From Bacteroidales bacterium (GTDB taxonomy: Bacteria > Bacteroidota > Bacteroidia > Bacteroidales > UBA932): a stretch of 64,000 bases of DNA. Below are positions 20,028-23,504 of the stretch, piece after piece. Under the pieces are notes generated by a model, which ran no database searches, had not been told where the DNA came from, and saw only the letters and a list, made by a program, of their open reading frames with translations. The first letter of the stretch is position 1, and each line of letters begins with the position of its first letter. The translations under genes were made by a program, and so were the position numbers. The DNA lies in NCBI GenBank assembly GCA_011620605.1, contig WOYW01000010.1, positions 1 through 64,000 of the forward strand, read 5' to 3'.

Positions 20028-21053
20028 ATGAAAGAATGGTTGTTGGGAAAAAATCCCGATCAGTTACGGGAAGTTACGGATTCCTACGGATTGCCTTCTT
20101 TTTCGGCCGGACAAATTGCCCGGTGGATCTACCACAACAAGGTCAGGGACATAGGGGAAATGACCAACCTGCCCAAAGAGGCCAGGGAAAAGATCTCTGA
20201 AAAATACCAGGTAGGAGGATGGCTCCCGGCAGATGTACAGGAATCTGCTGACGGTACAAAAAAATACCTGTTTCCCACGGCAGCCGGTTCCCATACCGGA
20301 ATTGAAGCCGTGATGATCCCCGATGAAGACAGGACTACATTGTGTTTGTCTTCACAGGTGGGATGCCGCCTGGGCTGTGCTTTCTGCATGACGGCCCGGA
20401 TGGGGTTCCAGGGACAACTCAGTGCCGGGGAGATAGTAAGTCAGTACCTGAATGTCCAGGAAACCGGACTACTGACCAATGTGGTGTATATGGGCATGGG
20501 AGAGCCCCTGGACAACTGGAAAGAGGTATTACGTTCCCTGGAGATCTTTACCTCTTCCTGGGGGTTTGCATGGAGTCCGCGGCGCATAACAGTCTCAACA
20601 TCGGGTATCCTGCCCGTACTGGATGCGTTCATGGAAAAAACACAGGCGCACCTGGCCGTGAGTCTGCACAATCCATTTGATGCAGAACGCAGGCAGCTTA
20701 TGCCGGTACAAAAGGCTTATCCGGTCAGTAAAATAATCCGGAAACTGAGAGAGTATGATTTCAGCGGGCAACGCAGGCTGAGTTTTGAATACATTCTTTT
20801 TGACGGATGGAACGATACCCAAAGGCATGCAGCTGCCTTGCTGCAATTGTTGCGGGGAATGGATTGCCGGGTGAACCTGATACGTTTTCACCCAATTCCC
20901 GGCTTTTCCTTGAAGCCATCAAAAGAAGCGGCCGTCAATGTGTTTCTGACACGATTGAACAAAGCCGGCCTGGTTACTACAGTGAGGGCTTCCCGGGGAC
21001 GGGATATCCTGGCGGCGTGCGGCATGTTGAGCGTAAAGAAAAAAGATGAGTGA
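20028..21053 (+). CDS. rlmN: Dual-specificity 23S rRNA/tRNA adenine C2-methyltransferase RlmN
   Basis: A 341-residue radical-SAM methyltransferase acting on A2503 of 23S rRNA and A37 of some tRNAs. The cluster motif CRLGCAFC is followed by MTARMGFQG. YMGMGEPLDN, SPRRITVSTSG and AHLAVSLHNP are family motifs, and the C-terminal catalytic Cys is in LAACGML. The length is typical. recX follows with a 1-bp stop-start overlap, and recA is transcribed divergently from the 67-bp gap. Confidence 0.96.
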   Translation: MKEWLLGKNPDQLREVTDSYGLPSFSAGQIARWIYHNKVRDIGEMTNLPKEAREKISEKYQVGGWLPADVQESADGTKKYLFPTAAGSHTGIEAVMIPDEDRTTLCLSSQVGCRLGCAFCMTARMGFQGQLSAGEIVSQYLNVQETGLLTNVVYMGMGEPLDNWKEVLRSLEIFTSSWGFAWSPRRITVSTSGILPVLDAFMEKTQAHLAVSLHNPFDAERRQLMPVQKAYPVSKIIRKLREYDFSGQRRLSFEYILFDGWNDTQRHAAALLQLLRGMDCRVNLIRFHPIPGFSLKPSKEAAVNVFLTRLNKAGLVTTVRASRGRDILAACGMLSVKKKDE

Positions 21054-21517
21054 TGAAACGGGAAGAATTCAACAAGTATCTGGGAAGGATGCAGGCTTTG
21101 TGCAGCCGGAGCGAGAAATGCAGGGCAGATATCCAAAAAAAACTGCAACAGAAGGACATAACTTACAAAGATATTAATAATATTTTGCAGGCTTTGGAGA
21201 AAGAAGGATTCATTGACGAAGTGCGTTATACCAAGGCATATGTGCATGATAAAAGTCGGATGCAGGGGTGGGGACCGAGGAAGATCTCGGGTATGCTTAA
21301 GATGAAAGGGATCCGGCAAGAAATCATTGAAAGTGCTCTGATTCAGCTAGATGAGGAGTTGCTTATGACCAGGTTAAAGGATGCAATCAACAAGAAAGAC
21401 AAAACCATAAAGGAAACGGATCCGGTTAAGCGGCGTGCCAGACTGGTCCGGTTCGGTATAAGTAAGGGTTATAATTTCTGGCAGGTACTAAGGGTTTTGG
21501 AAATATTAAAAAGATGA
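21053..21517 (+). CDS. recX: RecA regulator RecX
   Basis: A 154-residue all-helical protein that modulates RecA filaments. It has the tandem three-helix repeats of RecX: CSRSEKCRADIQKKLQQK, then ALEKEGFIDEVRYTKAYVHDKSRMQGWGPRKISGMLKMKGI. The ATG at 21053 shares one base with the rlmN stop (TGATG); the listed GTG at 21050 only adds one residue. It sits on the far side of rlmN from recA, so the pair is close but not co-transcribed. Confidence 0.9.
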   Translation: MKREEFNKYLGRMQALCSRSEKCRADIQKKLQQKDITYKDINNILQALEKEGFIDEVRYTKAYVHDKSRMQGWGPRKISGMLKMKGIRQEIIESALIQLDEELLMTRLKDAINKKDKTIKETDPVKRRARLVRFGISKGYNFWQVLRVLEILKR

Positions 21518-21535
21518 AAACTAATCAAATATTTT

Positions 21536-21564
21536 TTGCATAATTGAAATTCTTGTTATATTTG
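21536..21564 (+). promoter_or_regulatory. Strong promoter of the 57-residue small protein gene
   Basis: TTG (21536-21538, within TTTTTTG) and TATATTTG (21557-21564) are separated by 18 bp. The small ORF begins 48 bp further on. This is one of the best promoter matches in the window. Confidence 0.7.
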
Positions 21565-21612
21565 TGCTTTAGAAATTAAGCCATTTAATTACTAAACTAA
21601 AATAATATTGTT

Positions 21613-21786
21613 ATGACAATTTTAGACATCACATTGCAGCCGATCTACAATCTTTTAGGCGAGATCTGGAATTTACTGTTTGGAAGTGCCGGAGCATGGG
21701 CAGATGACCTCTTTGTTGTTCTGAACCATATTTGGGACATTTTCCAGGGAATCTTTACATTTGTAATAACAGGCGGAGCAGCTTAA
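21613..21786 (+). CDS. Uncharacterised 57-residue hydrophobic/amphipathic small protein
   Basis: Not in the ORF track because it is shorter than 60 codons. The reading frame ATG-TAA gives a 57-residue protein starting MTILDITLQPIYNLLGEIWN and ending FVITGGAA. It is rich in Trp, Phe, Leu and Ile with few charged residues: four Asp, one Glu, one His, and no Lys or Arg. Two helices separated by GSAGAWAD are likely, and the second could lie in or along a membrane. A good promoter lies upstream and a terminator just downstream, so it is a single-gene unit. I do not recognise a family. It could be a membrane peptide, a secreted self-assembling peptide or a toxin-like peptide; the sequence does not decide. 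Confidence 0.7.
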   Translation: MTILDITLQPIYNLLGEIWNLLFGSAGAWADDLFVVLNHIWDIFQGIFTFVITGGAA

Positions 21787-21824
21787 ATTTTTCGCTAACA
21801 ATTACTGATCAGTACCTTAATAAC

Positions 21825-21855
21825 AAGGCTGTCTCGTACGAAGGCAGCTTTTTTT
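21825..21855 (+). terminator. Terminator of the small protein gene
   Basis: AAGGCTGTCT pairs imperfectly with AAGGCAGCTT around a CGTACG centre and is followed by seven T. It lies 38 bp after the small ORF and directly before the YgjP-type gene, whose ATG is at 21860. Confidence 0.65.
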
Positions 21856-21859
21856 GCTT

Positions 21860-22405
21860 ATGGGGAACTGTAAAGCAGGGGACATCGTCTTTACTTTAAA
21901 TAAAAGCACGCGAAGATCATTGGGAATTACAGTCAGGAAGGACGGGTCGGTTCACGTGAGGGCTCCTTTCTGGCTTAGTTCCAGCGAAGTGATACGCATG
22001 GTATCCTCAAAAGCTGCATGGATACAAGCCAGACAAAAAGCCCTTGAAAAAGAACCCGTGCTGCCATCCGGTAAAACTGAACTTAACCGGCTCAGGAAAG
22101 AAGCTATGTTAAAGTTTCTGGATATTGCCGCTCCATGGGTGGAACAGTTCAAAAAGAAGTACGGTGTCGAACCTAAAAAATGGACAGTCCGAACTATGAA
22201 CACACGTTGGGGAAGCTGTTCTTCGGCTACGGGAAGGATTACACTCAACACCAAATTGTATTATAAACCCGATGAATGCGTGGAATATGTAATCGTCCAC
22301 GAGTTGTGCCATCTGATCCATCCGGATCACGGAAAAGGCTTTTATGCCCTGCTGGAAAAAGAACTACCGGAGTGGAAGCGTAGGAGAAAGCAATTAAAAG
22401 CTTAA
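21860..22405 (+). CDS. YgjP/WLM-type zinc metallopeptidase
   Basis: A 181-residue M48-related metallopeptidase-like protein. The zinc motif HELCHLIHPDHGKGFY gives HExxH plus a downstream His. MNTRWGSCSSATGRITLNTKL is the conserved YgjP signature, and the N-terminal RRSLGITVRKDGSVHVRAP is also typical. The ATG at 21860 is taken because the listed TTG (21854) lies in the terminator T run. Biological substrates of this family are unknown. prfB follows after 12 bp and may be co-transcribed. Confidence 0.85.
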   Translation: MGNCKAGDIVFTLNKSTRRSLGITVRKDGSVHVRAPFWLSSSEVIRMVSSKAAWIQARQKALEKEPVLPSGKTELNRLRKEAMLKFLDIAAPWVEQFKKKYGVEPKKWTVRTMNTRWGSCSSATGRITLNTKLYYKPDECVEYVIVHELCHLIHPDHGKGFYALLEKELPEWKRRRKQLKA

Positions 22406-22417
22406 ATTTACAGTATT

Positions 22418-23504
22418 ATGATATATTCCGCAGATAATTATAAAAACCTGTTGCAACGCGGGCAACGGTTGAGGAGGTTTCTTTGAGGTAGAAACCCGTG
22501 AAAAAGAATGGCAGTCCCTGACCGAACGTTCTCAACAGCCCGATTTCTGGAACAATCCCAAAGAGGCGGAGGCGATCCTGAAAAAGCAGTCCGCCCTGAA
22601 AACCTCTCTGGATGCTTATTACCGCATCCGCGAAGGCCTGGAAGATCTGCAGGTGCTTGCCGAGTTGGAGGCATCGCAGGAGGAGCTGGACCGCCAGACA
22701 GACAAAGTGCTGGACTGGATCGAGCAGGAAGAGCTCAAAAGCATGCTTAGCTGCGAAGGAGATGACCTGGGGGCTTTGCTGAAGATCAATTCAGGTGCAG
22801 GAGGAACCGAAAGCAACGACTGGTCCGCCATGCTTATGCGAATGTATATCCGCTGGGGCGAAAGGAACGGGTACAAAGTCAGGGTGCACGACATCCTGGA
22901 AGGCGAGGAGGCGGGGATCAAATCCTGTACCCTGGAGTTCGAAGGAAAATATGCCTACGGGTATTTAAAAGCCGAGAACGGGGTTCACCGCCTTGTGCGC
23001 ATTTCGCCTTTCAATGCGCAAGGTAAACGCCAGACAACCTTTTCGTCTGTGTTCGTTTATCCTGCTGTGGATGATTCCATAGAGATAGAGATCAATCCTG
23101 CAGACCTGGAATGGGATACTTACCGCTCCAGCGGGGCAGGCGGCCAAAATGTAAATAAGGTAGAAACCGGTGTACGTGTACGACACCTGCCTACCGGGAT
23201 CGTTGTAGAAAACACGGAAACAAGAAGTCAGTTTGATAACCGGCAGAACGCCCTTCGTATTCTGAAGTCCCATTTGTATGAAATAGAACTTGAAAAACGA
23301 AGGGAAAAGGAATCGCAACTGGAAGGACAGAAGAAAAAGATCGAATGGGGATCCCAGATTCGTTCCTATACGCTTCATCCTTATAAAATGGTTAAAGACC
23401 ACAGGACAGGTTATGAAATGACAGACACCCAGGCCGTTTTGGATGGTGACCTGAACAGGTTCATTCACACCTATCTTCTGGGAGGTTCATCAAATGGCAC
23501 TTAA
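22418..23504 (+). CDS. prfB: Peptide chain release factor 2 (programmed +1 frameshift)
   Basis: RF2 recognises UGA and UAA stop codons. The ORF track lists only the part from 22653. The gene begins at ATG 22418 (MIYSADNYKNLLQRGQRLRRFL) and meets an in-frame TGA at 22484. Skipping T22484 continues in the frame EVETREKEWQSL through to 23504, giving about 361 residues, normal for RF2. The GGQ motif is SSGAGGQNVNKVETGVRV. The anticodon-like SPF tripeptide is in RISPFNAQGKRQ, which identifies RF2 and not RF1. The last 11 bp overlap the helicase gene. Coordinates are join(22418..22483,22485..23504). Confidence 0.95.
22471..22486 (+). promoter_or_regulatory. prfB autoregulatory frameshift site
   Basis: An internal Shine-Dalgarno-like AGGAGG (22472-22477) is followed by TTT CTT TGA. 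The slippery CTT (22481-22483) precedes the UGA stop (22484-22486). Low RF2 lets the ribosome slip +1 over the T, restoring the frame. The base after the stop is G, where the well-known E. coli site has C. Base pairing of AGGAGG with the CCTCC anti-SD of this genome's own 16S rRNA is complete. Confidence 0.92.

Follow-up and report, generated by a model that had tools for sequence, protein, structure and literature searches.

On the evidence of comparative sequence analysis, the interval between recX and a ygjP-type gene holds a genuine, unannotated gene for a small protein, with a promoter and a terminator of its own (Table 1). In the window (the whole 64,000-nt stretch of Bacteroidales DNA that was analysed) the frame opens with ATG at 21613 and closes with TAA at 21784–21786; product: 57 aa, 0 Lys/Arg, 3 Trp, net charge −5. 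The order along the + strand from recX to ygjP is TTTG, an 18-base spacer, TATATTTG, leader, the 57-codon frame with its TAA, and hairpin/T-run. The length of 57 codons is not significant by itself, many longer chance frames being listed in the window; the gene was accepted as real because it is conserved, not because of the length of its ORF. The original prediction of a complete small gene missed by the ORF track at this place was confirmed: the 57-aa frame was found as described, and it belongs to a set of 11 syntenic orthologues.

Table 1: Features of the small-protein locus (positions in the window)
Feature	Position	Strand	Evidence
recX, upstream neighbour	21053–21517	+	Pfam RecX_HTH2, E 5.1e-15
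Sigma-ABfr-type promoter: TTTG 21535–21538, N18, TATATTTG 21557–21564	21535–21564	+	pattern scan, 11/11 loci
A/T-rich unstructured leader block CATTTAATTACTAAACTAAAATA	21582–21604	+	DNA alignment; no consensus structure
Small gene, 57 aa, MTILDITLQPIYNLLGEIWNLLFGSAGAWADDLFVVLNHIWDIFQGIFTFVITGGAA	21613–21786	+	ORF; 11 orthologues; purifying selection; AF2
Perfect 10-bp palindrome ACTGATCAGT in 3' UTR, between stop codon and terminator	21804–21813	+	DNA alignment
Intrinsic terminator, 10-bp stem and T-run	21825–21855	+	terminator scan; consensus fold
ygjP-type metallopeptidase-domain gene	21860–22405	+	Pfam PF01863, E 1.4e-45

Distribution and synteny

A first search of 60 relatives gave six strong matches at the same site, all within the genus, along with weaker ones; two of the latter (G007 and G009) were shown by position to be orthologues, and a ygjP search followed by direct inspection gave two more (G008 and G010), so that 11 syntenic loci were obtained including that of the window. 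Every genome of the genus that yielded the recX–ygjP locus (11/11) has the small gene; the order promoter–leader–sORF–terminator–ygjP is kept in each, and the gene is single-copy at a constant chromosomal site in every genome that has it. Two draft assemblies (G003 and G012) gave no small gene; their silence is uninformative, since they also gave no RlmN and no strong YgjP match. A match in G012 (L008) was discarded, as it lay within an aminotransferase-like gene of 398 aa.

The genes around the small gene are rlmN, recX, ygjP and prfB (RlmN, RecX and the YgjP-like protein confirmed by Pfam), and no partner except ygjP and recX is consistently adjacent across the loci. The prfB gene (window 22418–23504) starts with ATG at 22418 and has an in-frame TGA directly after CTT (CTTTGA; slippery site 22481–22486); we take this to be the programmed +1 frameshift usual for RF2, and an ordinary case.

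A profile search of 300 genomes of the family returned 11 true members, all in one genus, and three weak matches elsewhere (E 0.002–0.008). The best of these three (L065) is a chance frame, with no separate small gene at that place; the remaining two fall inside long open frames (201–303 aa), one of them interrupted by a stop. The small protein was not found in the viral contigs, phages and plasmids searched; it gave no family match at the curated cut-off or with a significant E-value in Pfam, NCBIfam and PHROGs, and no match among PDB sequences. A fold search of the PDB, for which a two-helix model of 57 residues is a weak probe, gave no match at E up to 10. Named public records that carry the gene are metagenome-assembled Bacteroidales/Rikenellaceae (DTU002, UBA1374, UBA5226, ADurb bins, Bact_09). 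The best reading of these comparisons is that the family is genus-restricted; it appears to be undescribed in the libraries searched, and its kind, small hydrophobic bacterial proteins, is already known.

Selection on the reading frame

Between subclades the small protein diverges faster than its neighbours (27–35% identity to the window copy versus 44–55% for RecX and YgjP), and despite this the gene keeps its position, length and pattern. Divergence at codon positions 1/2/3 within the main clade was 0.27/0.17/0.49, third positions carrying 581 of 1104 differences; dN/dS was 0.14–0.48 wherever dS was unsaturated. Of the changes that separate the closest pair (G000/G011; dN/dS 0.15), 12 are synonymous and 8 non-synonymous, and indels within the frame are multiples of three. 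The third-position excess, the dN/dS values and the in-frame indels, with the terminator as the sole conserved RNA structure, show that the protein itself is selected. Conservation of the frame and synonymous bias in relatives had been named beforehand as a check; the frame is kept in all 11 loci, within the dN/dS range given, and neither of the two outcomes that would have counted against the gene (a frame lost in close relatives, or an RNA signal with frame-independent substitutions) was observed.

The same data bear on a regulatory RNA in which the ORF would be merely incidental. Such an RNA would suit a predicted transcript of ~290 nt that has both a promoter and a terminator to itself and whose 5' block is strongly conserved; substitutions, however, follow the reading frame instead of being independent of it, as an RNA signal had been expected to show, and folding the alignment of the orthologous loci gave no conserved structure besides the terminator. 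Rfam returned one sub-threshold snoRNA match on the opposite strand, judged spurious. The codon-position and dN/dS results bring this explanation close to refutation, and we regard it as scarcely credible. Transcripts with sORFs or sRNAs that have their own start site and terminator are known from Bacteroidales (PMC7366714) and resemble the present locus in predicted architecture and promoter type; here the frame is supported by evolution, whereas the transcript is predicted from sequence alone.

Expression signals and the link to ygjP

The promoter reads TTTG-N18-TATATTTG or TTTG-N18-TATCTTTG with identical spacing in 11/11 genomes, and its −7 box stands 56–58 nt 5' of the ATG. It fits TTTG-N18-TAnnTTTG; the consensus of the primary sigma factor of Bacteroidetes (sigma-ABfr) is TTTG around −33 and TAnnTTTG at −7 (PMC7366714). 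Across the window the sigma-ABfr pattern was found 4 times (1.6 expected), so a single occurrence is unremarkable, and the weight of the promoter comes from its conservation at a fixed place. A sigma-70 scan scored it 9/12; 6 such sites were found in the stretch against 2.9 expected (sd 1.9), little above chance. The near-consensus promoter of the original prediction is accordingly present and conserved, but its type is sigma-ABfr, not sigma-70.

The leader contains an invariant CCATTTA and, just 5' of the start, a TAACT(A/T)AAA(A/T)A-like block; the 3' part of CATTTAATTACTAAACTAAAATA resembles an initiation element, TAACTWAAAWA-N5-9-ATG, that is also found before rpsP. The TAACTWAAAWA block is not over-represented overall in four congeneric genomes; among 30 occurrences examined as loci, ~12 (two of them the small gene) sit 5–9 nt before an ATG. 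In three genomes it precedes rpsP, identified from its sequence as the gene of ribosomal protein S16, and in the genome of the window it precedes the gene of a ferritin-like protein; matches to the long-leader pattern in other genera lay in or near unrelated genes and were set aside. In Flavobacterium johnsoniae, which belongs to a phylum without Shine-Dalgarno sites, initiation is promoted by adenines near −11 to −14 (PMC6847099). An efficient region for initiating translation is the best reading of the leader, and this lends indirect support to good expression. Codon usage of the small gene (statistics drawn from the window plus one ribosomal cluster) does not separate average from ribosomal-protein-like use; the high expression proposed earlier is supported indirectly, by the element shared with rpsP.

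Two side observations were made as well. A second small, Trp-rich hydrophobic protein of 43–45 aa was found via the leader motif in 13/13 genomes of the genus; the copy in the genome of the window reads MTILTAEPHWIWKVFAIAGPLMCLIGNLWLGWGFELISYLVGLIL. Sites: L111 1492–1626 (own genome, C3 near 87840) and L087/L109 (G010:C5:99161–99289). After it come additional hydrophobic frames of very short length, giving the look of a cluster of tiny membrane proteins. An inverted pair of TAACTTAAAAA, exactly 323 bases apart, occurs in three species (G000:C17:8671/8994, G005:C7:2777/3100 and G010:C16:302819/303142); on one side of the G005 pair, the motif stands ahead of a protein of 150 aa that begins MRKITIL (L107).

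The terminator following the small gene was borne out as a 10-pair hairpin and T-run in 11/11 loci; all 10 pairs are kept in each, and at one of them both sides have changed in a compensatory way. The palindrome ACTGATCAGT has a counterpart of different sequence, TCAGCGCTGA, near the corresponding position in a second subclade; the loop would be too small for a good hairpin. The ATG of ygjP lies a few nt beyond the T-run in 11/11 genomes, and no conserved promoter was found between the small gene and ygjP in the 11 loci; a further promoter-like match that lies within the ORF in G000 and G006 is not conserved. Since the ygjP ATG directly follows the T-run and no promoter of ygjP itself is conserved, the gene probably owes its expression to read-through of the terminator. 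The stand-alone design suggested at the outset therefore holds as regards the gene's own promoter and terminator, but not as regards ygjP, which begins right past that terminator.

This arrangement could also be that of a leader/attenuator, in which the sORF and terminator control ygjP, read-through is decided by a factor or by ribosomes occupying the sORF, and the peptide is secondary. The position of ygjP and the conserved palindrome before the terminator would fit, as would the long 5' UTRs of B. thetaiotaomicron with sORFs reminiscent of leader peptides (PMC7366714); a short ORF and terminator before a gene lacking another conserved promoter are likewise shared with known leader peptides. 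The present peptide, however, has 51–59 aa conserved along its length, with purifying selection over most of it, beyond the needs of a leader peptide; there is no run of a regulatory amino acid or of regulatory codons, and the alignment fold shows no alternative antiterminator structure. We therefore consider attenuation unlikely, while giving it some weight. Somewhat less weight still is given to the proposal that the peptide is a substrate, anchor or inhibitor of the YgjP-type protein, from an undescribed, genus-restricted family of acidic helical-hairpin membrane proteins whose expression is tied to ygjP by obligatory terminator read-through.

Protein properties and proposed function

The 11 members have 51–59 residues, net charge −1 to −7, 2–5 Trp, 9–16 aromatics and no Cys; GRAVY 0.34–1.02. 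Lys and Arg are absent from 6/11 members and number 1–3 in the remainder; the absence of Lys/Arg noted at first is true of the window copy but is not a family property. Invariant residues: M1, W29, F48 and F50; near-invariant: L15, W19, F23, A30 and F44. AF2 gave two helices for the window protein (3–23 and 28–54; mean pLDDT 77) and again two for a divergent member (mean pLDDT 70); confidence was moderate (pTM 0.48 and 0.38; alignment of 11 sequences). The acidic, aromatic, two-helix protein originally described is in agreement with these data, the charge being negative in all members and the helices resting on models of that confidence.

The helical hydrophobic moment was 0.43–0.69 (helix 2) and 0.30–0.49 (helix 1), and Wimley–White octanol sums favour partition into the membrane. 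The usual Kyte–Doolittle threshold for a transmembrane segment is 1.6; the highest 19-mer value was 1.57, lower still in most orthologues, and because this maximum falls just under the threshold a peripheral protein or soluble oligomer is possible. The predicted properties are most economically read as those of a helical hairpin located in or on the inner membrane; the membrane association implied by the earlier suggestion of a structural or signalling membrane peptide is thus plausible.

The account that we favour as a whole, and hold to be somewhat more probable than not, is a real gene with partial read-through into ygjP, encoding an acidic amphipathic membrane hairpin of accessory or regulatory role. 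The small gene would be transcribed from its own promoter, with the terminator partly read through into ygjP; the acidic product of 51–59 residues would fold into two amphipathic helices via a short Gly/Ala-Trp turn, and the hairpin would insert in or rest on the cytoplasmic membrane. Aromatic and aliphatic faces may touch lipid or a partner membrane protein, and the narrow polar stripe of helix 2 (N38, D42, Q45, T49) could serve helix–helix contact. In the membrane the product may be a small subunit with an accessory or regulatory task, this role and the level of translation being conjectural. Small hydrophobic membrane proteins such as MgrB (47 aa; PMC8404706) are similar in having fewer than 60 residues, in being hydrophobic and often unannotated, and in that the protein is selected; the present protein differs in having two helices, amphipathic and acidic, where those have a single transmembrane one, and no sequence similarity to any of the families searched was found.

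An acidic product with two amphipathic helices and no evident signal peptide might also be secreted, as a PSM-like peptide or leaderless bacteriocin (surfactant, aggregate or antimicrobial), and the rapid divergence between subclades would be in keeping with this. Small amphipathic proteins beside a lipase gene of S. aureus were found to be PSM-like (e.g., LspU; PMC12607899); small size, an amphipathic helix, the lack of an evident signal peptide and a position directly upstream of another gene are common to both. Such peptides are known from Staphylococcus, however, and here no detectable sequence relation was found, no export or immunity gene is linked among the adjacent rlmN, recX, ygjP and prfB, and the single copy at a constant chromosomal site, with nothing in the mobile and viral sequences searched, also weighs against secretion, which we judge improbable.

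The short, hydrophobic product, its amphipathic helices and polar stripe would likewise suit the toxin of a type I toxin–antitoxin pair; that reading is very improbable, given an acidic and not cationic product, a fixed single-copy chromosomal site, no match among the families scanned, and a minus strand without a promoter of the sigma-ABfr type (the type scanned) in 11/11 loci.

By itself the small gene overturns nothing known. It is a clean example of a missed gene from uncultured Bacteroidales, with promoter, leader, frame and terminator all conserved, and a good candidate for direct testing; its fixed coupling to ygjP provides the first hypothesis for the function of the small protein.
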